A stretch of DNA of 38,341 nt from positions 5,097,548 to 5,135,888 of the forward strand of contig FN649751.1 of NCBI GenBank assembly GCA_000310025.1. Reading direction: 5' to 3'. Position numbers and translations under genes: made by a program. The DNA is from Ectocarpus siliculosus (taxonomy: Eukaryota; Sar; Phaeophyceae; Ectocarpales; Ectocarpaceae). The notes beneath the pieces are model-generated. The model saw only the letters and a program-made list of their open reading frames with translations. It was not told where the DNA came from and did no database searches. Shown here in pieces: positions 6,201 to 38,341 of the stretch (position 1 is its first letter; each line of letters starts with the position of its first letter).

Positions 6201-9200
6201 CAGAAGATCGGACTCTCCTCACCCATGTCGATGAAGAACACGTCCACGTCCACGTCGATGTCCACCGGGGTGTCCAGGTTGTAGTTCCAGCTATCCCCGA
6301 CCCTGGGAAGCCAGGAGCCTGGCACCGCCGTAGGTGATTCCGTGGCAGGGGTCCCGGCCGTCGATGATGTCGGCACCGGTGTCGGACTGGCGGTCGCTTT
6401 GGTACTAGGCGACGGCGTGCTTGGAGCGGGGGGTTCCGTGGCAGCGGTCCCCCCGGTGGGGGGTGATGTCGGCGCAGCAGGTGAGGGCGGTTCGGCAGTC
6501 GGCGAAGGCGTGCTTGGAGCGGGGGGCTCCGGGGTAGGGGCCGGTGCCGCCGTTGTGGTGGTGGTGGGCGCGAATCCCGTGACCAGGCTGCAGTCGTGGT
6601 CCCTCGAGGGATTGGCACAGCTGCACATGGGGGCCTTCAGGTCGTAGTTCTGCAGAAATAAACGTATCGGCGGAACACGGGCGGATGGCGTCGGGGGACG
6701 GGGGCAGGGGTCGCCGGCAGATTTACCGTCTTGCCAAAACAAGTACAAACAAAATTTGATACCAACTTTACCGCTGTGCACAGCCCGTAAGTTGCCTGTT
6801 GCCCGTCATGCATGCCTCTTGCTGCATTTGTCACCGCCGGGCTCCGCCTTGGTAGTAAATTGTTCGTCGAACGTCAGGGCTGTAACCGAGCTTCTCGTCG
6901 TCGTGCCTACCTTGAAAATGGTATCAATGCCCAGCGCATTAGATCCATCGCACCCGCCGTAGTCTTTGCTGTACCTGAAAGTAGTTGGAGGTGGAGTCGG
7001 GACGGGGACGGGGGCGGGGATGTAACCGACTTGGTTCCGGCTTCGGTCGGCCCTGTAACAGCAGGAAGTTTTTGTGCAGCAGGAACACCCACACTTTTGC
7101 TAAACCCTCCAACAACGTCATCAATAACATCAACACACATTCATCAGAGCCCCCCCCCCCGCCCCCGCCCCCGTAGCCATGCCGGAAGTCTTAAGGCTCT
7201 CGCAAACAAACTGCCTTAACGTGATGTCGGCAGAGGCTAGAGTATCGTGCCGGCCGGCCCGGCACCTCGAACAACAGAGTATCGCATCTAGTTTTGCGTT
7301 TGTAGAGCGAACTCACTCGACGTTGAAGACGGGCTTGCCCTCAGACAAGAACGGGATCTGGTACGCCTGCCACGAACGAGAAGGGAGAACAAGTGCACGT
7401 ATTTGTCGCACCGGGAGAGGGGGCGGGGGGGTAAGAAGGCTTTTGTGTATGGTGCCAACGATGCAGAAACGGTCCCTCCTTGGAAGCAAGGCTTGCTCTT
7501 GTTCGTTGGACGTTGCCATTTCGACCCGGAAGCGCGGCAGGTGGCACATGTTTTGATAACTTCTAGAGCATGTCGATGTGCGCCACAGGAACAAACAAAA
7601 CAGCGCAAGTTGCATGAGAGCAACAACGACTACTATCCGAGGGCTGATCGCAAAGCCTACTCACGTCACACGCATCCCACTGGAGGCACTCAACGCTCAC
7701 GGCGAAGTCGTAGTACATGCTCGTGTCTTCAATCAACGAATGGCCCGCTTTCAGGCCAACCTTCATGCCGTTCTCCTGGACCTGAACCGAAACAGCACGA
7801 GAGAGCGGAACGGCAAGCACAAGAGAGCGGCGAGATTTCCGCCGTACGGACGACAACAAACAAGAAGCCGCAGGAACGGAGCAAGTAGTGGACGATTGGA
7901 TTCTGTGTGGCAAGTCCTGCTATGGCAATTCGCCGAGAATCTTCATAACGGCCACCACAACGGCAGTGAGCGACGAGCTGTGGGAATAGAACAAAGTCGA
8001 AACTTCATACGGAGCCTGTGGCTAGAGTACTGCGTACATCATACATACGCACATACATGGATGATTCGGAAGCGAGCGCCGACAACTATGTACAGGAAGC
8101 GATGATAACTCAGTTTATGGCCTTGGGGAGGACTGGGACACCCCTTGGTGTGAAAAAACGTTCTTAACCTAGCGGTCTTGGGCCGTGCCACCGCATCGGT
8201 GGGAAGACGCCCACCCCTCATCCTGACCCTGCATCTTCTCGGGGCAAAAAGCTACTGGTATGAGTTCGATTTGCGGTGGTTGGTTGGTTTTCCTTACACC
8301 ATGCAAAGACTAGATATATATATGGCACTCACCAGTTCCGCAACCCACTTGTTGTAGGAGATCTGTTCGTCCTTCGAGATGGTGAACCCGGAGTCTTGTT
8401 CGTTCCACACCTGCGATTTTGTTTTTTGTGCGGTGGACGAGTCAACAAGAGAATGGCCGCAGTATGTGATTCATGCTCTTGGGGTAGACCTGCTATTTCC
8501 TGCCATCACATGACTTCTGTGCAAACGCGGACGCTGTCTAAACAGCCGCCGTCGAAATTGCCAAACACGGCAAGTACTACCCTTCCCGACAGAGAGGCCC
8601 CGTGCCGAACGGCGTGCGGAGAGAGAGAGAGCTTGTATGTATGAACGACGAGCGAGCACACCGGGGGGTGCGTGTTGCTGCCGTATTGTCCCCGCGGCGA
8701 CTCACGGAGATGTTGTCCGGCTCGACGGCATCGCAGCCCTTGCTGGCCGCCTTCTTCACGCGGTCCTCCATAATCTCCCTCACAGACTGTAACACTCGAG
8801 AACACGCAAGCCAAGCGCGGAATAATCATCGGACGGTGGGCGGGCGGGCGGGCGGGCGGGCGGGCCAACGGTGAATCGTGCCTACAGGCAGTAGGGAAGA
8901 AGGGTCGAGCGAGACACCCTCTGGTTGGGGTTTCGTTTTGCACTTCTTTTATCCCCTTTCGTCGAACCCGGCGGGGTCATCAGAGGCTGTGCCCGGTATT
9001 CTATGTCCGGCAGGAAGATCACCAGCACATCTACGCGCCCGGAACCAACCGAACTGATACCACATCACTGGGCGTTTTAACTGATGTACCTCCTGGGTGA
9101 TATCAATCCAGTTTTCGCCACTGTCGTCGCCGGAAGCAGTCCCGACCACGGAAGACGGGAACACGCCGACGTCTTCGCGCCACGACTCCACGGTGCCGAC

Positions 9201-25528: not shown

Positions 25529-26126
25529 ATGTCGGACACCAGCGACTCCTCCGGGATGCGCAAGAAGAAAAGCTTCTCCTCCCGCTTCTCCAGCAAGATG
25601 GATAAGCTTTCGAACCCCTTCAAGCGGGGGGACCACTCGGACTCGGACAGCGACGACGACGACGGCAGCGGAGGCGGCAAGGGCAAGTCGCTCTTCGGGG
25701 GCAAGCTGCACAACCCTTTCAAGAAGGGTCACGGCTCCGACAGCGAGGACGAGAGCAGCAGCAGCAGGTCCCCGGCCAAGGACCGCCGCAAGGCTAGCGA
25801 GGAGGCGACCACGCCCAAGCCGAGCGGCGGCGTCGTACCCCACGTGCCCAGCCTGTTCGCGAAGTCCCCCAAGAAACACGAGGGCCCCACCGAGGAGGAC
25901 AAGCCGGCGGCGCAGCCAGTGGTCCCGCAGCCTGCGCGGGTCCCAGAGTCGGAGCCTCCCGCAGCGGCAGCAGCAGCAGCAGCAGCAGTCGCGCCGGCTC
26001 TCCCGCCTCGGACTCCCGCGGAGGCGCCGAGGGCGGCGGCGGCTGCACCGGCCGCCAAGCCGGCGGCGGAAGCCCCCGCGGGCGCCACTGACGCTGCCCT
26101 CTCCCCACAGTCGACAGACGGTGGTG

Positions 26127-26160
<34 letters not shown>

Positions 26161-29100
26161 TGAGCCTCAGAAGCCGAGAGTGACGGTCGGAGGGCCGGTG
26201 TTCGGTGCTCCGGACATCCTGCTGACGGGGGTCAAGGGGGAGCCGGACGCGGCGATGAGGACCCTCAGGCAGAGGGGCTTCGTCATCCACCTGGTGAGAG
26301 ACGGGGAGAGAAAGATTTCTATACGCAGGTTGAGAGCGAGAGGGAGGGAGGGAGGGAGGGAGGGAGAGAGTGAGTCTGTCCGACCTTAGTTTGGATGGTG
26401 CTGTTTTGATCATTGCAAACGACAGCGTTTCAAGAGAGCGTGTGGCGAGACGAAGTGGCGAGGGGTGTTTTCCCCTACAGCTCATTTTTTTATTGGTCTG
26501 TCATCCGATTCCTTGTGTCGTGTCGTCGGTTTGCAGGTTCTATTTGCTGGCGCCACAGAGCTCCGACCTTGTCGCCCTCTCTCACCTAGCGCATGCAGAC
26601 ACCAACTCCCGTGTACCTCGTTTACTCCGGATGGAGCATGCCAGTGGATTATCGATGTCTTGCAACACCTGTTTGATAACCGTCGTTTTTTCATCACCGC
26701 GAACCAAACATGAAAAATGGTATATACCATTACCTCACCCTTAAAATACATTTTTTTGGCCGGCCGTCCCGGGGGGCGCCATCGAGCATTTAGCGCCGCC
26801 GCCGTACACCCTCGGTGTCCAACTGAATTGTCCTTTTCCTTTCCACCCTCGTCGAACACAAACATCATTCCGTTTGATTTGTGGCTGGTGCGGTGCAATC
26901 GGTCCCTCTTCTCCCTTCTTCAGTCGGGCCCCTTGCACATTTTTTTGTTTCTTTGCACTTGTCGTGGCCGCCGCCGCCTATGCCGGGGGCTCTTTTTTGT
27001 CTGTTTTTTGTTTTTTGGTCAGTCCATGCTGCACGAGGAACAAGTGCCGCCGGCGATGACGATGGTGCTGGCCATGGGCCCCAAGCTGCTGGTCAAGTCT
27101 GCCGTCGAGAGGAACCTGGCGACCAAGGCCAGGCAGGAGTACACGTCCGGCGAGGTGGCCCAGCTCTGCGCCGACGCCGTGCACGTCATCAAGCGCTCCG
27201 GCCTGGAGTACGAAGAGGCGAGTCGGGTTGCGGTGGTGGAGCGTTGTCACACGCGTACTCGGGGAGCAGTGGGGCTAGATGGAGGCGGAGGGATGGCAAC
27301 CCCCGCCTAGTAGGAAGGAACGATTGTCCATCGGTGATCGATCCTGTGGGAACAATGCTCCGTTCTCTCGAGGACGCGTGGTCAATGGCCTAACCGCTAA
27401 GGCATGCAAAACATAATAGTACGCCCCCCCCCCCTCCCCCCATAGCGAAGTTGATTGGGAAGGGTAAAGCTCAGATAGGCAAGATGGACGAGATCCTTAC
27501 GGACCCACACCTAGACACTAGGATTAAGAGGTGTATTCTCTTGAATGTGATTGTACCTAAGCTAGAGTATGCAGGAGAGGTATGGGAAGGTAACGAAAAG
27601 GCCGTCAAGCAGCTGGAAACGGTGCAGATGGCAGCGGCCAAGAAAATATTAGGATGTTCAAGTACAACGAGCAACACTGTATTGAGAGCAGAATTGGGAA
27701 TGTACTCTCTTAAAACAAAGAGAGACATGCAGAAGTTGAATTGGCAGTACAAGGTAAGTAGAATGTCGGACGATAGACTACCAGCCATGGTTGACAACGC
27801 AGCTTGGGGAAAAGCGACTCCAGGAAAGAAGGGAATCAGATGGGACAAGGTGGTAGAGAAGGTTTGGAAGGAGATAGGAGACGAGGAGGAGACGTTGGAC
27901 ACGGAAGGGTTCGGGGGGTTCAAGACGAAAGTCAAGGAGATGCTAGAGAGTAGGGAGGAGGCAACCCTTCGGAAGAAGGTACGAAGCGAAGACCACTTAG
28001 AGATATACGGGAAGTTGAAAGAAGGGATAGGGATGAAGACGTACTTGGACGGCCCCATGGACTATGCGAAAAAGCTGAAATTGCAATTTCGAGTAGGCGA
28101 TCTGGACTTGCCAGAACGGAGGAAGAGGTATACCAGCCGTAGGAGAGAGGAAGAGGAGGATAGACACACATGTCCATGTGGCAAATCGGAGGAGAGTAGA
28201 CCCCACATAGTTGGGGAGTGTGAGTTGTACAGGAAGGAAAGAGAGGATCTCGAGGAGGAAATGAGACAGAGAGGGTGTGACATGGACAAGTTTGGTAAAT
28301 TAGACAACAGCGAAAAAACGATCGCGATAATTGGGGATAGATGGTGGGCACAAGAGGCCCTAGAGGACGGGAATAAGATGTGCAAGGAATTTTTATGGAG
28401 TTTGTGGCAGAAACGTAAAGAGCTCCCAAATGTTGGTGGTGTCTCTAGTAGGTGTAGGAACGGTGCTCCGTCTCGAAAGGGACGCGTGGTCAATGGTCAA
28501 ATGACTACGGCAAGCAACAAATGAGTACGCTCCCCTCCCCCCCTCCCCCCTAGGCCGATTTTCAAAGTTCGATTGCTCAACAAGCGAGGTTGTGCCCAAA
28601 CGGTGGTTTTGGAAACTTGTTGTCGAAGGCTTTCCGTAGACGGTATCGGGCTCGCGCCGCACCCACTTGGTTGTGGAGCATTCAACGTTTGAAAATCGGT
28701 CTGGGGGGAGTGCCAAATCTCTCCGCCTCTTGTGGTAGGCAGCCCTCGGTGGCTTGGCGTGGGCGATGGCCGCCACCATAACTTGTCTCTTTTTGTTCTT
28801 TCGTTGCTTGCGGAGAGCTATCATAGGGACGGGTAGGCAGCGCTCAAGTTTTCGGAGCAGTGTTTGTCACTGCCTGTATATCATCTCGGTGCCAGGCCAT
28901 CTGGAGGATGTGCCCTTGCATGTTGTTCTTGTACTAGATTTGTACACGCAGCGGTACTCGAGTGGAAGCATGGTGACTGGACGTGCATTCTTCTGCGTCG
29001 TTCAGCGGGGTTAAGTCTCTACACGCAAGTGATGCCTGGCGCTCTCGCACGGCCTTCTTTTGTTCGTGGTGCGGCGGGTAAGCCTGTCTGTACCCACACA

Positions 29101-32100
29101 TGGTGGTGCCTGGCGCTCGCTCTCGACCCCGACTGCGCCTCCCACGAGCTCTCACGTACCTACCGATGTACAAACCCGTCATGTGATCTCGGCCCCGCAG
29201 GCGAACCTTCTGCACGACAAGGATGCGCTAGAGGGCGTCGCGAAGGCCGATAACAAGGACGTCCCTGACGCCGTCAACTCGTACTTCGGCCCTTACATCG
29301 GGATCTATTTCGCGTGGCTGCGGTTCTACACCAAGTGAGTGGCGTCGCCGTTAGGTAGAGGGTCGCGGCATGTTTACTTGGGACGGTTACGATCCCGTTT
29401 CGTTTCTTTGATGGGTAGATGAGATCGGATCGCAAGCGGAGCAAGGAGCCCGGCGATCGCAAAGGTGTCAGCGTGTGAAGTCGTACGCGGTAGTCGGCCT
29501 TGGTGTCTTGCTTGACCCTCAGCTGAGTGTGGAGCTTACTTGGCATTATACTTGTACTTGTACACCGCATCAATTTTCTATACCGCGGGCTTTGTACGGG
29601 GCTGGTTTTGTGTTTTATTTCGTGCCTGTCCCTCCCGCATCGACCGCAACCTCTGGAACCACCCCGACCTCCTCCCTTGTCTGCGGTGCCCCAGGGCCCT
29701 GCTGATCCCCACCGTGGGAGGCGTGTTCCTGTTCGTGGACCAGATGCGGACCGGCTCGCCGGACAGCCCGCTCCTGCCGATCTTCTGCATCCTCATCATG
29801 GTGTGGGTGGCCCTGTTCCTCGACGTCTGGAGGCGGCGCAACAATGAGATTGCCTTCCGGTGGGGGGTGGACGGGGTGGAGGACGAGGAGCTCATGCGGG
29901 TCCAGGCCGCTAAGGTGGGAGAGCTGCTGCGTCGCGTCGGCGCCGGCGGCGGTGCCTTGGAGCGTCTTATGTGAATTGGTGGACTTGTCGGGGGGGTGGA
30001 GGCGTACTCGTGTTTTGCATGCCCTAGCGGTTAGACGTTGACCGCGAGTCCTCGAGAGGACGGAGCATTGTTCCCACAGGACCGTGGGGGGGCTTAGATG
30101 TGTACAACGTGATGATAAGACCAGTGTGAAGCAAGGAGGCGTTTTGTGTTTTGTGTGCGCGCCTCTTGGGCCCACAGTTCTACAAGGTACTGCAGGATCG
30201 TCCGTCCGAATATTCACATGCACACATCGCAGCACACGGACTTAAGAGCTACAGGAACCCCCCGTGCCGGGTGTTTTTTGTCGCAGTGCAGGGCGGCGAT
30301 AGATTACCCGGCTAGCTCTCTCATTGAGTTCTTCTTGCGGAAACAATCCAGGAAGAAGGAGGCTAGGGAAGAGTAACGCGCGCCCGCGTGGGGTTTTCAC
30401 GTGCCTGGCGCGTCGCTGCGTTGTACTGTTTCGGTAGGCGTTTTTTTTGTGGTCATGTGCCTTTCCTTACGACTGCTGCTGCTGCGTTTTGCTGTGCGTG
30501 CGACTCTCTGGGTGAGACAGAAGGGGAACTTCAAGCCCAGCCCGGCCGGCAAGCTTTGCGTCACCGTGCCCATCATTCTGGCTGTCATGTACGCCGTCAT
30601 CCGCGCCATGCTCTACTGCATCTGGCTGAGCGACCACGCCGTCGAGGTGGGAGTGCCGAGCGCCTACTCAACGGTGTTTGTTGGGATATATCACCTTTGG
30701 TAGCGTGTGTGGAAAAGCAGACACAGAGCGATGAAGGACGCGTGATTTTGAGTTGTGGTCAAAACGACACGTTTCCCGATCTCCCACATATAATTGTGCC
30801 TTGCCAAAGGAGCACTTGCGATTGTTGGGTGTGGCGGTAAAGGGTCTCGCGGAGATGTGGACTTGGGGGTCTCGACGCCGTTGTGTTACATGCGACTGGA
30901 CCGAGCACGTATTGGGCGTGTTGACACTGCTTTGTTCGATGCCGTTGGCTGAGCGTTTGCTGAAGTTGCCCAGGTCAGTTTGATGGGCCCCTGTTGAGCA
31001 CATAGCCGGTAACCCGTATCACTCGCAAGGTTGTACGTACAAGATAAGCTCGACGGGCGTGTCTCGCGAGGGGACTAAGCGCCCAAGCGTCGTTCCCCAC
31101 GACATGCGCAAGCCCACATAAACAACGGCCACAGAAGTCGCTCGCTTGACCGCTACAGCGTAGCCGCCATTCGCTCGCCCGGTGACCCGTCTCCTGCCTT
31201 GCTTTAGACGTTGTTGACCGTGCGTGTGATGATGGTGGTCCGCGTCTCGTCGCCTCCGGCCGCCGCTGCTTCGCTTGTGTGACCTGCGTCCTCCGGCAGG
31301 TGTACGGGGAAGAGTCGTACCTTCAGTACTACCCCCTGGTTCTGTACAGCATCGTGCCCGTGGTGGCGTCGACCCTCTACACCTTCCTCGCCAAGGCGCT
31401 CAACAACTTCGAGGAGCACCCTACGCTCGTCAGGAAGAAGAACGCCTTCGTCATCAAGGTGTCGCTTTTTTTTTTGTGTCTTTCTCTGCGTGAATGAATC
31501 TCGTTCACAGAAAGCGCCGCCCCTTTTGAGTCGACACTTGCACCAAAGATCGTAAGACACGTTTTTTTTCTATTATGTTTACCTCGTGGTGCATGGAGCA
31601 TGAAACGGCCTGTTCTCTTATTTCTTATTCCTTCCGTCGTCGCCTTTTTTTTGTCTGAACTTGGTCGCCCTGGTCTCGTTTTTTTTTTTTCTCCCCCCCC
31701 CCCCCCCTTTTTTTCGATAGATGTTCGTCTTCCAGTTCGTCAACTCGTACTGCAGTCTCCTGTACGTTGGCTTCTGGCTCAGGGACCTCAAGCGGTTGCG
31801 GCAGCTGCTCATGACCATGATGATGGTCAAGCAGTTCATCGGCCAGCTCGTGGAGAAGTACCAGCCGGTCGTCGCGCTCTGGATGAAGAACCGCAACCTT
31901 AAGAAGAACGTGAGCAGTTTTTTCCCCCTCCCTGCCGGACCCGCCTACACTCGCGAAAAAGTTCCTTGTTCCTGTTCCTCAGTGACTTTTGCGCGAAGGT
32001 CTTGGTCGGGATTTTCGCGCACATGTCGTCTTTGTGTGTGTGTGTTTTGAAGTGTTGACGTATAAGTAGGTCTTCCTCTCTGTGATGGTGCTCTGTGTGT

Positions 32101-35100
32101 GTGTTTCGTTTGTTTTTTCTCGTCCGGTTGGTTTAACCGATGGCACAAGGTGTGATGGTTTCGTGCACGCTGTGAGTGTTTTGGCGGAGTAGCGACCTAT
32201 ATAGCGACTCCTGATTTCGGCACAATGCTTGCCTCGCGAGCCGCCGCTCTTAACGCCACGATCTCGCGCGCTTTTGAAGACTAGGACGGTTCGCTGCTGC
32301 AGTGCTCTCTGGTCTTTTCGAGTAGGCTTCCGTGTGGACCGCGAGCGCCCTCATATTGTATTGTCTCACCAAAACTGAAGTTCACCAAAACTGAAGTTAA
32401 AAATCAATACAACAACACAACACACACACACGAAATATCGTTTACGACGCCGATCGATCTCCCCCCGGTTTATTGCGCCTCGGCGCCAGCCTCCTAAGGA
32501 TCCCGTGATGCTGGTGAAACACACCGGAACAATCAGTCCGGAGGAACTGTTCGAGGAGACGAAGACGGAGATGGCTGATGTGGAGGAAGACTACCTGGAA
32601 ATGGTGTGTGTTTTGCTTCAGTTCCTTTCCTTTCTTTTTTCTTGTTTGTGGTGATGCCACAATCCGTCGTCGATTCCCAAGCACAGGTCTGTTTCGTCCT
32701 AGTGTGCGCTTTTTGCAACAAGTCTCCTGCCCCCCAAAGCTTCGCCCCCCCCTCTCTCCTGTGCGGCCCGGTCCGCAACACTTGGTACAGCAGTAGCATC
32801 AAGAAACGTCCGGAATATTAGTCGTGTTTGTCACGAGTGGCCGGCGGCGACTGCGGCGGAGGCGTCTCTGGCCCATTGATCTGTCTGTCTGCCTGTCTTG
32901 TCTCTTGGTGCAGAGTCGAACACTGCTGTGCGTCCCAAAGATGAGACCGATGCCTTTGGTTTGTTCTTGTAAACGGTATTTTATTTTTATGTCCTCGTTG
33001 TGCGAGGGAACCGCCGTCCTCAAAAGGCCAGCCCAACAAGCCTGCAACTGCTGCGTACATGCGGCAATGTTTTACCCTATAAAAAACAAGATTTTTCGGA
33101 CTCTCTATGTTTGTTTTTATTTTTCTTGGTCGCTCGGCCTCTCGGCCTCTCTTTCTCATATCGTGACCCTAACCCTTAGTATCGATCTGGTGATGCTTTG
33201 CTTGGCGGACCGGAAAATTACAACAGGTGCTGCAGTTCGGGTACGTATCCATGTTCGCTGTGGTCTTCCCGCTGGCCCCCTTGTTCGCCTACATCAACAA
33301 CATCTGGGAGTTCAAGCTCGATCTCAGCCAGCTCGTGAAGACGAGACGTCCCAAGGTGAGCGAGAGGGGGACTATGGTTGCGTCGTGGTGGTTGCATCAG
33401 AAGTAGGCCAGCAGGGCAACCGAACCTCTGGACCGACCGTGTTTCTGGTCTGTTTTCCTCTTTTGCCCCTACATCGTCCCATGAGACGCTGCGAGGAAGA
33501 TGGAACGGATGAACGAGCTGACCTGAATGGAAGTAGTCCATACCTTCTCCGCGCAAGGCATCACGGGCCCGCACGTAGAGAAGAGCCGCCAAAATTGTGG
33601 ATGGATGTAGTTTTTCTACACGGAGAGCAGGAACGGCGGGCCACCCTCCCTCGCGAAGGAACTGCCAGGTCAACCGTACAGTAGTAAGTGGGTTTCGCAA
33701 ACAATGCTCCGTCCTCTCGAGACAACGGTCTAACATGCCAAGGCATGCGAAACGCCTCCTCGACCCCCAGACGCACGCCGAGTCCTCCATCGGGGCCTGG
33801 CAGCTGTGCCTGGAGATGATCGGAGTCGTGGCGTGCCTGACGAACCTGCTGCTGGCGGTGCTGGTGTCGAAGAACGTGGACATGTACGTCCCCTCGTCCA
33901 TGGCTGAGCAGCTTGGCAGCTTCGAAGCAAAGGTGACACTTAGGCTTGAGACACGACGATGGTGGTGGTAGCGTATTTGCCTTTTCACTGTACGGTTTAT
34001 TGCCCATGTCAAAGCCGGGGGCGGCCACTCTCTACTTTTATGTTCTGCTTTTCTGCAACCGTCCGCGCGGAAGTATGCGAGCGGTATACTGTATGAGTGT
34101 TGCCGTGTGGTACGGGTTACCGTTTTTGTTGGCGTGGTTGTTGTCACGCCCCTGCCGTTCCTCGTGCAACTGCGACGTCACAACCCGCTGTAGTTGCCGG
34201 AGTTATTTCAACGGGCCGATCGACCGATCGCTAGTCATCGTTCTTCTCCGCCCGATGTCCTGTTTCCAAGGTCGTTCTGGTGGTGGTGGGAGAGCACGTG
34301 CTGTTCCTGCTCAAGGCGGTATCCTCGGGTCTGATAGACAAGGTGCCCCGGGTGGTCCGGGAGGCGCAGCTGGTGATGGCCGTCCAGCAGAGGGAGGAGC
34401 GCAAGGAGTTCCGCCGGCGCGCTAGCGGGCTTCCGGTACGACGACTGCTGATGATGCTGCTGCTGCTGCTGCTGTGCTCGCTGGTTTTTTTTCGATGTCC
34501 TCCCCACAACCGGAAAAATGTAACATGTGACATGGCGCCTCAGATTGGTTAGTCAGATTATTACCTGTTGGAGATGTACCGTGGGGGTGTTGTTGCCACA
34601 GATTAGGAAAGCCAGGGGACACCCTTATCCCGGCGTACAAGACCAGCTCACAGAGCAGTGTTTATACCCGCGTGCCGTATCCGCTGAACCGCATATCGCA
34701 TGGTGCTGCACACCACCGGTGCACCTACCTCATGGCTGATTGTTTTCTCGGTGCTGCTGTTCGTGCACACACACGCGCGGCGCGGTAACGTGCGTTCGTT
34801 CGTCCCACCAGGAGTCCGAGCGATCGGCGCCTGGCTTTCCGCTGGCGCCATCCACCCCGGCCGACAGGCTCAAGGAGCTCAACGCGACGCACGACGTGTG
34901 GAAGTTCGGGCCGAAGTGGTACATGCCGCTCGCTTTCCTGCCGTTCATCGCCGCCTGGTGAGAGAGATGTTGAGGGACAACGCCCGAACGCGCTCGCGTT
35001 TTGTTTTTTTCCGTGGAAGATGATGGTACCTAGCAAGAGTTGTTCCAGAACAGCGCCGAGCACGCTCGTGCTCGTGGTGTTTTTTTCCATGGGAGATTAT

Positions 35101-37248
35101 GGTAGCAAGGGGCGGGTGTGGGTGTGTTTTTATTTTTAGCGTGGACCACGTTTACCGGCTGACCAATGAAATGACGTCAGTCTCAGTGCGGTTGAAAGCG
35201 CAAAGTGCTGGAGGGCATGTGTGTGTGGGTTTTTGGTAGGTCGGCGATTGTTCTCATCTCCATCAAAGACCATCTGCCGGAGTGGTCTATCGGGTGGCGT
35301 TCAGGTCGTCATGTATTCGTACTCGTGGGTTCGAATCCCACGGTGGTCATTATCTTTTTTTCCTCGTTTTGTTCTTTCCCTCTGGTGTTTCACAGTTTTG
35401 TTTTTCTCCTACTTAAGGTGGACCTCCTACTCTAGGTAGACACCACTAATTCGAGAGAAAAACGTCAGCACGCGACAACGAAGGCTATTAGTCGTGTCGA
35501 GGCAACCCTCTCGAGACAGAGCAGTACCTTTCTTTCCCTCGTATGGGCGTGAAACACGGATCGATAACATCCCGCCTGATAGAAATTCCCTAAATAGTGT
35601 AGTGTTCGATGTTGGATGACACTATAATAATACATTCATCAATAGGCCCTTGTTTGGCACACGGACGGTGTCATCCTGTCCCTGGACTGGCTGGCTGTGT
35701 ATTTCTTTTTCTTTTTCTTTTTCTACAAAATCTCGCAACTGTTTTGTTTTTTTCCAAACCTTTGCGGCCCCAATCCGAACAAAACGCTGCTCGGGGCATT
35801 GCCGCCGCCTCCGCTGTTCGTTGTCTCAGGTTCAAGTGGAGCGCCCTCTGGGTGCTACCCATCGCGTTCGTGTTCGTGAGCTACCTGCAGCACCAGAAGG
35901 ACCTGTCGGACAAGGCCTTGGCCCTTGGCGTGGTGAAGGACCCCAAGGTCGGTCAGCGGAGCAGCCGGTAGCCACGAATCAGTTTTTGTTTGTTGGCGAT
36001 TTCTTGTGTCGTGTGTGAGCTTGTGATAGTTTCAGGAGCTTGTTTTCTCGTGTGCGCCAATATGATACCTCGCAGCTTTGAGTATATGATAGTTCGAGTC
36101 TTGTGTTTTTTTGTGTGCACCAATAGAATTCTGTCGCTGCTTGTACAGCGGTAGTTAGGACTTACAGACAACAAATATTTGGTCGTGATCATCGGGCGCG
36201 TGAGTCAGTCGACGGTTCGATAGCTCTTTGTCGTCTCTGAGTTGACCCGTTACTCTTTGGCATTTCGTAAGCGTTTGTCCGAAGGCACTACTTGTAGAGC
36301 GGTTGGTGAAACAACTGAATTGCTGCATCGACCGACAAAGAAGCAACAACAATGCACGTTGCGGCCGGCTAGGGCCAAGAGCAGTAGCCTTCTCTGCAAG
36401 CGGAGCCCTCTCTCTCTGCATGCATCCACACGCTTCGCCGGTTAGGGTCCACGGCAGTTGTAGCCTTTCCGCACAGGCGAGACCTGTCTCTGCATGCACC
36501 CACCACACGCTTCGCCTCAAGCGTGCGACGTGCTTTTAGGCTTGCCGCGACAACATGCCATGGTCTCCATTAAGAAATTTTGTTTCTTCTCTCCTCCCGA
36601 AATGCCTATTTACTTCATTTACCACACCCGCCACGAGGTAGACTTTGACTTGCTGCCGCGCGCTTGAATGTGCATGCTGCAGGTATTGGAGATGGTGACC
36701 GGGTTCTTGCCTCCTTGGTACACCGATTCGGAGGTGGAGCGGGTGGACTGGCTGAACAAGATGCTCGACAAGGTGTGGGTTTCGGGAGACGTGAAAGGAT
36801 GTGCGGCATAGACAAGTCAGTCAGCAGGAGGTTTGCGATTGTTGCCTGCTGATGCTGCTGCTGTTATTGCCACCGAGTGGGCGGTGGACCTGGCCAAATG
36901 ATGAAGCTGTGACGATCGACGGACCTCACCGCCGACGCTCTCGCCTTTGCAACGGCGTAAACTATGCATGTACCCTAGGTAACGTCCTGCCTGCCGTCCC
37001 CCCGTCGTCTGGTCGTCCCGTTTGCTCCGCCCTTGCCTCATTGCCCTAACCCTCTGCTGCCTGCGGTCGCGTTTATTCGCTCTCTCTTGGCGGCGGTCTG
37101 TTGGCGTGGACAGATGTGGGTGTCGGCGTCTGCGGCCACCCAGGACTTGTTCGCGACGACGATCCAGCCTATCCTGGACAGCTACCGCCCGCCGGGGATC
37201 AGCGCCCTCGGCTTCAAGAAGGTCTCGCTCGGCACCATCCCGCCCAAG
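25529..37248 (+). CDS. TMEM16/anoctamin protein fused to an SMP lipid-transfer domain, partial at the right edge
   Basis: Exons: 25529-26293, 27023-27217, 29201-29334, 29695-29914, 30287-30372, 30517-30646, 31300-31458, 31721-31909, 32490-32603, 33227-33355, 33771-33932, 34271-34435, 34812-34957, 35830-35947, 36683-36772, 37114-37248; all phases agree, about 979 residues to the last exon. Residues 1-255: Ser/acidic, Lys-rich and poly-Ala tail with a repeated NPFKRG/NPFKKG motif. About 340-816: anoctamin core, with GIYFAWLRFYTK, KPSPAGKL, FQFVNSYCSLLYVGFWLRDL, FGYVSMFAVVFPLAPLFAY, IGAWQLCLEMIG and VGEHVLFLLK; closest in style to the ANO8/ANO10 group. About 850-890: two hydrophobic stretches, a hairpin as in E-Syts. 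About 905-979: SMP start (PPWYTDSEVERVDWLNKML, LGTIPPK). Anoctamins are scramblases or anion channels; SMP domains carry lipids at membrane contacts. Exons 5-6 and the GC donor after 27217 are the least certain. The rest of SMP and any C2 domains are outside the window. Confidence 0.8.
26126..26159 (+). repeat. (GCT)n microsatellite encoding poly-Ala in exon 1
   Basis: About ten GCT codons encode an Ala tract in the N-terminal low-complexity region. A second Ala tract (GCAGCGGCAGCAGCAGCAGC) lies at about 25961-25988. Both keep the frame. Confidence 0.85.
26341..26368. repeat. (GGGA)n microsatellite in intron 1
   Basis: About six GGGA units lie shortly after the exon-1 donor (GTGAGAG) of the TMEM16-SMP gene. 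Intron 1 (26294-27022) otherwise shows T-rich sequence before the acceptor and no further exon that fits phase. Confidence 0.8.
27343..27441 (+). repeat. C-tailed tRNA-like short repeat, copy 2 (5' of LINE)
   Basis: It starts CCTGTGGGAACAATGCTCCG, contains GCGTGGTCAATGGCCTAACC, and ends GTACG followed by a poly-C-rich tail that abuts the LINE. It is very similar to the reverse complement of 29990-30088. Confidence 0.7.
27442..28524 (+). mobile_element. 5'-truncated non-LTR retrotransposon (LINE), 3' end of the reverse transcriptase ORF
   Basis: A single open frame of about 355 codons encodes the C-terminal part of a LINE-type polyprotein. It has the thumb-like region RIKRCILLNVIVPKLEYAG, then EVWEGNEKAVKQLETVQ and AAAKKILGCSS, a charged helical region, and a CxC-H-C zinc knuckle (CPCGKSEESRPHIVGEC) near the end. 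The catalytic palm and endonuclease are absent, as expected for a 5'-truncated copy. It lies in sense orientation in intron 2 of the TMEM16-SMP gene. The open frame suggests a fairly young insertion. A copy of the C-tailed repeat flanks each end. Confidence 0.82.
28457..28552 (+). repeat. C-tailed tRNA-like short repeat, copy 3 (3' end of LINE)
   Basis: It contains GGTGCTCCGTC, then GACGCGTGGTCAATGGTCAA, then GAGTACGCTCCCCTCCCC. The LINE frame runs into it and stops inside it at 28524, so it may be the LINE 3' end or a separate insertion. Confidence 0.65.
28555..28699. mobile_element. MITE-like element with terminal inverted repeats
   Basis: The left end CCGATTTTCAAA is the exact inverse of the right end TTTGAAAATCGG, and pairing continues imperfectly for about 20 more bases (GCTC and AACAAG/CAACCAAG blocks). 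It is about 145 bp, non-coding, and directly follows the poly-C tail of the repeat at 28457-28552. I could not confirm a target duplication. Confidence 0.5.
29990..30088 (-). repeat. C-tailed tRNA-like short repeat, copy 4 (inverted)
   Basis: On the minus strand it reads CCTGTGGGAACAATGCTCCG, then GCGGTCAACGTCTAACCGCT, AGGGCATGCAAAAC, and GAGTACGCCTCCCCCC. It sits in intron 4 of the TMEM16-SMP gene. Confidence 0.7.
31677..31720 (+). promoter_or_regulatory. Extreme polypyrimidine tract at the exon 8 acceptor
   Basis: T13, CT, about 15 C and 7 T run almost without interruption into CGATAG at the acceptor of exon 8 (31721). It is longer than other acceptor tracts in the window. The homopolymer lengths may be misread. 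Confidence 0.5.
33690..33770 (+). repeat. C-tailed tRNA-like short repeat, degenerate copy 5, ending in a splice acceptor
   Basis: ACAATGCTCCGTCCTCTCGA and GGTCTAACATGCCAAGGCAT match the other copies. Its C-rich tail (CGACCCCCAG) ends exactly at the acceptor of exon 11 at 33771. Confidence 0.6.
35153..35190 (-). repeat. Short interspersed repeat, second copy (inverted)
   Basis: This is the reverse complement of the repeat at 25416-25453, with very few differences. It lies about 80 bp upstream of the tRNA-Leu gene. Confidence 0.65.
35268..35349 (+). tRNA. tRNA-Leu (anticodon CAG)
   Basis: This is an 82-nt complete cloverleaf. The acceptor arms GACCATC (35268-35274) and GGTGGTC (35342-35348) pair fully with one G-T. 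The D stem is CCG/CGG with GGAGTGGTCTATCGG as A box. The anticodon stem TGGCG/CGTCA encloses the loop TTCAGGT with anticodon CAG at 35302-35304. A variable arm with a GTA/TAC stem (35313-35322) is typical of the class II Leu/Ser type. The T arm is GTGGG-TTCGAAT-CCCAC, the discriminator is A, and CCA is not encoded, as normal for a eukaryote. A T7 Pol III terminator follows from about 35354. The gene lies in sense orientation inside intron 13 of the TMEM16-SMP gene. Confidence 0.93.
35353..35361 (+). terminator. Pol III oligo(T) terminator of tRNA-Leu
   Basis: A run of seven T within about 5-12 bases after the tRNA 3' end matches the usual Pol III stop signal. Confidence 0.75.
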
Positions 37249-38341
37249 GTGCGGGTTATGCTGGTGTTCGTTGTCGTGGTGTGTCTGGGGGCGGAGCCTG
37301 CTGCCTGTACACTCGCGCGTATCACTCGTTGTTGCTGTGGTGGTGGTGATGGTGGCACCGCTGCGTGAGGCTGCTGCGCCGTGTGTTGGGGTTCGTGGGG
37401 CGCTCTCCAATCACACGCGCGACACACAAACCACAAAACAGCAGGCCATCGTGCAACACAGCAGCAGCAGCATGGACCAAGAGCAGACGTAGATCGTTCC
37501 GTCTCCGGCGTTGTCTGCTGCGGTAATACCCCGGCATCCCTAACTGGCATGTCAATTCTCGTGCTCCGGACTCTAGCCCGCCGCTTAGCTACTACAGCAG
37601 TATCCCCCACCACTTTGGCTGCCCACACTTGGTTTAATCTTTTTCTCAAAACTTGATTTTCTTTTTTCCTCGTCCGAGGTAGATCCTGCCCAAAGCTTCG
37701 ATAGTATGCTACCACGAAGCACGCCTTGCAATGGTGGTACAACCGCCCTCGCCTGATCTTTTACCTGTGTGTTGTTTCCGTTCGGCGTGGGGGGGGGCAC
37801 ACTTTTTTGCTTTTTTTTTGGGGGGGGGGGGGGGGGTTTTAGGGCCCCGGCATCCCCCCTTTGGAAAAAAAGGAAAAAAAGGCCGGGATCCAAATCCACC
37901 CCCCTTGGGCCGGGAACCCGGAATTTATGCGGGAGGCCGGGGTCAAGCCCGTCCCCCTCCCCATCCCCCTCAAAAAAATTTGCTTCCCCGGGAGGAAGAG
38001 GGGGGAGCTCGCCCCTCTCGGGCCGGTCTTCCCCTGGTTCGGGGCAGGGGGGGGGGGGGGGGGGGGGGTATTTTATTGGTAGGATCCACCCCCCTAAAAG
38101 GGTTTTGACCAATGAAAAAACTTTGCGTTTGAAAAAAAAAAGTTCTTTTTTAGGCCATGATCTGGGACCCCGGGAGGTTGGGGGGTTTTTTTTTTGCCCT
38201 CGGGCGCCCCAACGGCCTGACCAATGAAAAAACGTCAGTATTCTGGGGGGAAAAAAAAACCCCCGCCCACTCTACTCCCTGGTCAGGTGGGGGGGTTTTT
38301 TTTAACCTCGAATACGGGGACCGGCTGAACAATGCAAGTTT
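37249..38341. other. No gene supported; right end is low-quality homopolymer-rich sequence
   Basis: After the exon-16 donor (GTGCGG) nothing continues the SMP domain before the window ends. From about 37780 the sequence turns into long G, C, T and A runs, including a G26-type run near 38047-38068, typical of unreliable read ends. Degenerate matches to the ACTGAGACTGACGT repeat occur at 38213-38240 and near 38320. Confidence 0.6.

Follow-up and report, generated by a model that had tools for sequence, protein, structure and literature searches.

Scrambling lipids and carrying them between membranes are usually tasks of separate proteins. It is still debated, on the basis of pairs of separate proteins, whether lipid carriers acting at membrane contact sites require a donor-side scramblase. 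A locus of Ectocarpus siliculosus raises the question of whether both jobs may be held by one polypeptide. The first-pass annotation of the analyzed window (38,341 nucleotides, C26:5097548-5135888 of the 189-Mb genome) described a TMEM16 (anoctamin) protein joined in frame to the beginning of an SMP domain, and we asked if this union is real and what such a protein could do.

After correction by comparison with relatives, the gene model starts with an ATG at 25529 and runs through 15 plus-strand exons to 37248, encoding 952 amino acids. GT..AG borders are present at all 14 introns and the frame is open throughout. Sixteen plus-strand exons in one frame, with a start at 30287, had been proposed initially. 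The open frame held, extending from the ATG at 25529 to 37248 without a stop (976 aa), while one exon proved false, three exon edges were moved and the gene was found to begin about 4.8 kb earlier. The false exon, 30287-30372, belongs to intron 4; none of the seven relatives aligned there (P0001-P0005, P0027 and P0034) has anything that corresponds to its peptide, and it was rejected for this reason. An end of exon 2 at 27217 with a GC donor was replaced by 27226, which has a GT donor and is supported by relatives, and an acceptor at 32499 for the exon ending at 32603 was rejected as late, since relatives place the start at 32490. The whole gene runs from 25529 to a TAA about 46.1 kb from the start of the window, across a 4,347-base assembly gap, and its domain order is N-tail, complete anoctamin, hydrophobic hairpin, SMP, C2 and C2. 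The encoded sequence shares 97-98% identity with proteins from Ectocarpus sp. 13 and sp. 12.

Exon 1 (25529..26293) carries the ATG, a low-complexity N-tail and the start of the cytosolic N-terminal anoctamin region; the same start and tail are found in P0002 and P0003. The tail contains two KL(S/H)NPFK(R/K)G motifs, each followed by an acidic stretch, which are present in P0002 and P0003 too. NPF motifs can bind EH-domain endocytic proteins. Exon 2 (27023..27226), with its end corrected, continues the cytosolic region, and P0003 has EYEEASRANLL there. The Pfam Anoctamin domain begins in exon 3 (29201..29334), continues in exon 4 (29695..29914, profile positions 22-90), which is joined directly to exon 5 (30521..30646), and proceeds through exons 6 (31300..31458) and 10 (33771..33932) to exon 11 (34271..34435), where the last anoctamin segment, VGEHVLFLLK, is followed by the beginning of a linker. 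In the 976-aa model the domain was recognized with an E value of 6.7e-100 and 335.6 bits against a cut-off of 28, covering positions 1-456 of the 460-position profile. The nearest solved structure by sequence for this first half is ANO10 (5oc9, 5.4e-44). Hydropathy alone merges the transmembrane segments of the anoctamin and does not separate ten helices.

Site columns in the alignment place Ca2+-site residues in three consecutive exons: the TM6 Glu in exon 7 (31721..31909), the TM7 DYLE residues in exon 8 (32490..32603) and the TM8 E...D residues in exon 9 (33227..33355). These positions were assigned by the site numbering of mouse TMEM16A. Five of the six positions are acidic in all four anoctamin-SMP fusion proteins that we found (E, D/E, E, E, D), the TM6 Asn being replaced by Gly in each of them, and the window model carries the same motifs.

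The second half of the protein begins with the linker and the first hairpin arm in exon 12 (34812..34957), collinear in P0001, P0002 and P0027, followed by the second arm in exon 13 (35830..35947); the reading frame is kept across the phase-2 intron 34957/35830. A hydrophobic hairpin ahead of the SMP domain had been suggested from the start, and a largely hydrophobic stretch of about 35 residues does begin at model residue 821, collinear in P0002, P0027 and P0034. We predict that it folds as a hairpin. SMP starts in exon 14 (36683..36772, LPPWYTDSEVERVDWLNKMLDK) and continues in exon 15 (37114..37248). The strings VGEHVLFLLK, PPWYTDSEVERVDWLNKML and LGTIPPK, on which the original proposal was built, were all found in the translated frame. 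Jointly, exons 14 and 15 match PF17047 at 6.3e-5 with 23 bits, under the Pfam cut-off of 27. The relatives exceed this cut-off, with 67.8 bits for P0002 and 48.9 bits for P0027 over the whole domain and 57.8 bits for P0001 over 140 of 180 positions; judged from these relatives, the start of SMP in the window, sub-threshold when taken alone, can be called with certainty.

A local SMP profile search found three SMP exons in the window: exons 14 (E 1e-10) and 15 (E 8.7e-14) and a further plus-strand exon 16, from the middle of the domain (profile 74-135, E 7.6e-11), with approximate limits of 37843-38046. This last exon lies in error-rich sequence at the edge of the gap and agrees with P0001 at 47 of 68 residues, compared with 557 of 574 for the preceding exons. 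The end of the window (37780..38341), which precedes the 4,347-N gap (C26:5135889-5140235), is of low quality, error-rich and marked by long runs of G, T and A. In this genome the gap conceals the remaining SMP and the beginning of the first C2 domain (C2A). The end of C2A and all of the second C2 domain (C2B) are encoded by five exons beyond it, at C26:5140768-5140928, 5141651-5141914, 5142426-5142627, 5142964-5143061 and 5143655-5143685 (TAA), collinear with P0002. The expectation that more SMP sequence and C2 domains would follow past 38341 was borne out for C2 beyond the gap (Pfam E 7.9e-8, with two C2 stretches there and in P0002), the additional SMP exon being inside the window. Pfam recognized one C2 stretch only in P0027, where the second was identified from the alignment. 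The first C2 of P0002 has, as read by eye, the Asp pattern of Ca2+-binding C2 loops. With P0002 as query, the nearest solved structure by sequence for the second half is the SMP-C2 part of E-Syt2 (4p42, 1.9e-40).

Three protein searches, each scoring the best 7,999-8,000 candidates by shared words, returned 53 distinct proteins, four of which hold both domains as a search for anoctamin and SMP in the same protein had been proposed to reveal. Because only these candidates were scored, other lineages may hold the fusion as well. P0001 from Ectocarpus sp. 13 is partial and joins anoctamin to SMP. The same domain order as in the Ectocarpus siliculosus gene is found in P0002 (EukProt, 1,400 aa, 88% identical to the gene product), P0027 (JGI, 1,418 aa, 40% identical to P0002) and P0034 (NCBI, 1,346 aa, 38% identical to P0002). 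Anoctamin and SMP both score over the Pfam cut-offs in P0001, P0002 and P0027, and were assigned in P0034 from precomputed domains and alignment. Since P0027 and P0034 are only 40 and 38% identical to P0002, the domain order has been kept over long evolution. Identity between P0002 and P0027 is 41% in anoctamin, 17% in the linker, 30% in the hairpin, 54% in SMP, 50% in C2A and 41% in C2B. SMP is thereby the best-conserved domain, at 53-54% against 41% for the anoctamin. A useless or mispredicted tail would not be expected to hold the best-kept domain of a protein.

The open frame, the splice sites, the four relatives with both domains and the fact that distant members are more alike in SMP than in anoctamin support the original proposal of one polypeptide. 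From this sequence evidence, the anoctamin and the E-Syt-type half are almost certainly encoded as a single chain, about 1,400 amino acids long as judged from P0002. That an anoctamin gene and an adjacent E-Syt gene were misjoined by gene prediction is very improbable. Such an error could be suspected from models that contain one half only, such as the SMP-only P0035 and P0036 and the anoctamin-only P0004, yet the linker and the hairpin align collinearly in all four fusions (P0001, P0002, P0027 and P0034) and the frame is preserved through the phase-2 intron 34957/35830. P0027, which comes from a JGI contig and has V as its first residue, was probably called as one uninterrupted ORF. The half-only models are all brown-algal and all three look cut: P0035 (Hapterophycus) is marked partial and begins in the linker, P0036 (Discosporangium) begins inside the SMP domain and so cannot be a whole E-Syt, and P0004 (Ascophyllum) lacks the N-terminal exon and ends in the linker. 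A chance match or a separate neighboring gene was rejected on the collinear linker and hairpin in relatives and on the 557 of 574 identities to P0001, which are ungapped and span both disputed introns. A different possibility is that the gene yields both a TMEM16-only form and the complete fusion, by retaining or splicing intron 11 (34436-34811), so that coupling is optional. Read-through past 34435 would reach a stop at 34550-34552 (ORF 34235-34552), and the P0004 model, with the anoctamin alone, stops in the linker; however, P0004 may be just a cut model given its missing N-terminal exon, and we consider production of two forms distinctly unlikely.

The SMP tree (17 rows) unites the four fusions with two brown-algal SMP pieces at a support of 98/99 and shows P0027 and P0034 as a pair (92/88). 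P0028 and P0050 were left out of the set of 19 used for this tree; P0050 has no anoctamin match. In the anoctamin tree (39 rows), the fusions group with the brown-algal P0003 and P0004, P0005 from Phaeothamnion and the window with support of 100; P0027 and P0034 pair again (99), and the tree does not fix where P0005 joins. The four fusions are the only rows common to both trees, and they show the same branching in each. Both trees carry a long-branch warning from the program. Such agreement fits, while it does not prove, one fusion event followed by descent.

To see how the fusion stands among related loci, we also considered other anoctamin, SMP and C2 sequences. No SMP exon was detected about 9-16 kb beyond the last detected anoctamin exon at five other anoctamin loci (C2 twice, C11, C157 and C20) using the same profile that found three such exons in the window. 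This control scan covered 13 stretches with 3,761 ORFs and gave one chance match (E 4.1) on the opposite strand; the C20 control is weak in that only N-terminal anoctamin exons were seen there. The SMP-C2 part of P0002, searched against the Ectocarpus siliculosus genome with E up to 10, limited sensitivity and scoring of the best candidates only, gave SMP matches at this locus only. The C2 part alone matched at four other places (C16 twice, C11 and C10). One of these, C16:1615944-1616237, is a C2-like match to C2A of the fusion (37% identity, E 1.5e-9) in a 266-aa open frame without an SMP match. The Pfam SMP_LBD and SMP_MUG190-like profiles found no match anywhere in this genome, this locus included, probably because the exons are short, and a plant SMP query also found none, again including this locus. 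Because these queries miss even the fusion gene, their silence says nothing on a divergent second SMP gene or a stand-alone E-Syt. No relative was found among viral contigs (94 pattern matches) or prokaryote genomes (123 pattern matches).

Several other features lie in introns or in the 5' flank. Between hairpin exons 12 and 13, the intron contains a plus-strand tRNA-Leu (CAG) at 35268-35349. A 376-aa open frame in intron 2 (27394-28521), whose ends overlap 74-nt direct repeats at 27372 and 28480 (73%), has no Pfam match and looks like an inserted mobile element. Inverted repeats, located in introns and the 5' flank, were found at 27339-27385/30038-30084 (47 nt, 91%) and 25413-25462/35144-35193 (50 nt, 88%) and are probably copies of dispersed elements. 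Ten ORFs, chosen among the 22 longest of those in intron 2 or outside the gene, all lacked a Pfam match.

Both halves of the protein belong to known families, and their union in one chain is a new architecture as far as found in the open literature. Like E-Syts and tricalbins (E-Syt2, 4p42), the protein has a hydrophobic hairpin, SMP and C2 domains in the same order. In those proteins the hairpin is N-terminal with no other membrane domain, whereas here it follows a whole TMEM16 protein and two C2 domains only were seen; by its domains the protein would work like an E-Syt yet is not simply one. It resembles anoctamins, the nearest being ANO10/TMEM16K (5oc9), in its whole Anoctamin domain and acidic Ca2+-site residues, and differs from them in bearing a C-terminal hairpin, SMP and two C2 domains and in the Gly at the position of the Ca2+-site Asn. 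E-Syt with VMP1, a suggested partnership, and ATG2 with ATG9, itself a scramblase, likewise pair a transfer protein with a scramblase, but these are separate polypeptides and their scramblases are of other families. An ATG2A-ATG9A structure is among the references of PMC13286939. In yeast, Ist2 with Osh6 similarly ties an ER TMEM16-like scramblase to lipid transfer across a contact, as described in PMC12617493. Unlike the fusion, whose C-terminus is SMP-C2-C2, Ist2 recruits a separate ORD protein, Osh6/7, through a long disordered tail, and the sequence match between the two is weak (6.2e-10). The first-pass annotation knew of no description of this architecture, and we found none of an anoctamin-SMP protein in the open-licence literature searched. 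In its main text, a bioinformatic survey of the anoctamin superfamily (PMC5868767) mentions neither SMP nor synaptotagmin (0 occurrences) and allows only that some large members may be fusions.

What could such a protein do? TMEM16 proteins are dimers, and both ends of the TMEM16 core are cytosolic. The best overall explanation, and in our judgment a probable one, is a Ca2+-controlled ER contact-site protein combining a TMEM16 core with hairpin-SMP-C2-C2 in one chain, the scramblase feeding its own SMP. The TMEM16 core and the hairpin would sit in the ER, leaving both core ends and everything after the hairpin in the cytosol, as transfer requires. When cytosolic Ca2+ rises, both the TMEM16 core and the first C2 domain would respond, and this C2 domain would dock on the opposite membrane, most likely that of the cell surface (plasma membrane). 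The SMP dimer would take phospholipids from the cytosolic ER leaflet and hand them across, while the attached scramblase would refill this leaflet from the lumenal one. Since TMEM16 and SMP are both known as dimers, two chains would form one scramblase dimer and one SMP dimer.

Parts of this mechanism have precedents. The SMP of E-Syt2 dimerizes into a 9-nm cylinder harboring glycerophospholipids (PMC10023780), and tricalbins and E-Syts are anchored in tubular ER by the hairpin and bind the plasma membrane by their C2 domains (PMC13286939, PMC10023780). It has been suggested that the scramblase VMP1 may assist E-Syt transfer (PMC10023780). In vitro, the ER scramblase Ist2 refilled the outer leaflet while Osh6 removed PS, and transfer was up to about 15% higher (PMC12617493). 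The same source reports that no effect on cellular PS was seen in yeast without the Ist2 scrambling domain, so that coupling may matter little in cells. The simplest reading unites donor-side scrambling with SMP transfer in a single brown-algal protein governed by common Ca2+ control, and on balance we lean towards a scramblase that feeds the SMP, a step that we infer.

Alternatively, the anoctamin half could be a Ca2+-activated ion channel, or just a bulky ER anchor to which an E-Syt-like tether is attached, and not supply the SMP by scrambling. The change of the TM6 Asn to Gly would suit this alternative, as would the retained hairpin, which gives the E-Syt part an anchor of its own, and the TMEM16 family includes channels as well as scramblases (PMC6863393). 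We regard it as unlikely, because the nearest solved structure, ANO10 or TMEM16K, is an ER lipid scramblase according to PMC7335067, and because an anoctamin kept at 41% over its whole length together with five acidic site residues goes beyond the needs of an anchor. The place of action may also be another contact, such as ER-plastid envelope or ER-endosome, instead of ER-plasma membrane. NPF motifs in the N-tail could recruit endocytic EH-domain proteins, and PMC7335067 describes an interorganelle role of TMEM16K in regulating endosomal sorting. E-Syts and tricalbins with hairpin-SMP-C2, however, act at ER-plasma membrane contacts according to PMC13286939 and PMC10023780, making a different contact rather unlikely, if worth keeping in mind.

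For the scramblase-fed SMP protein favored here, we tentatively suggest, at somewhat less than even confidence, a self-contained lipid-flow machine that unites scramblase, tether and SMP carrier in a single chain. The fusion would have arisen once, ahead of the divergence of brown algae from the lineages to which P0027 and P0034 belong, and may be the main or only E-Syt of these organisms. The fusion points to a contact-site design in brown algae for which the open literature searched gave no example, and to cooperation of TMEM16 proteins and E-Syts elsewhere. Being a natural fusion of two dimerizing proteins, it allows a direct test of whether the carrier needs the scramblase, in which either half of a single purified protein is disabled. 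Should this self-contained machine be real, the natural fusion would count as evidence that TMEM16 scramblases and SMP carriers function as one unit, even where they occur as separate proteins.
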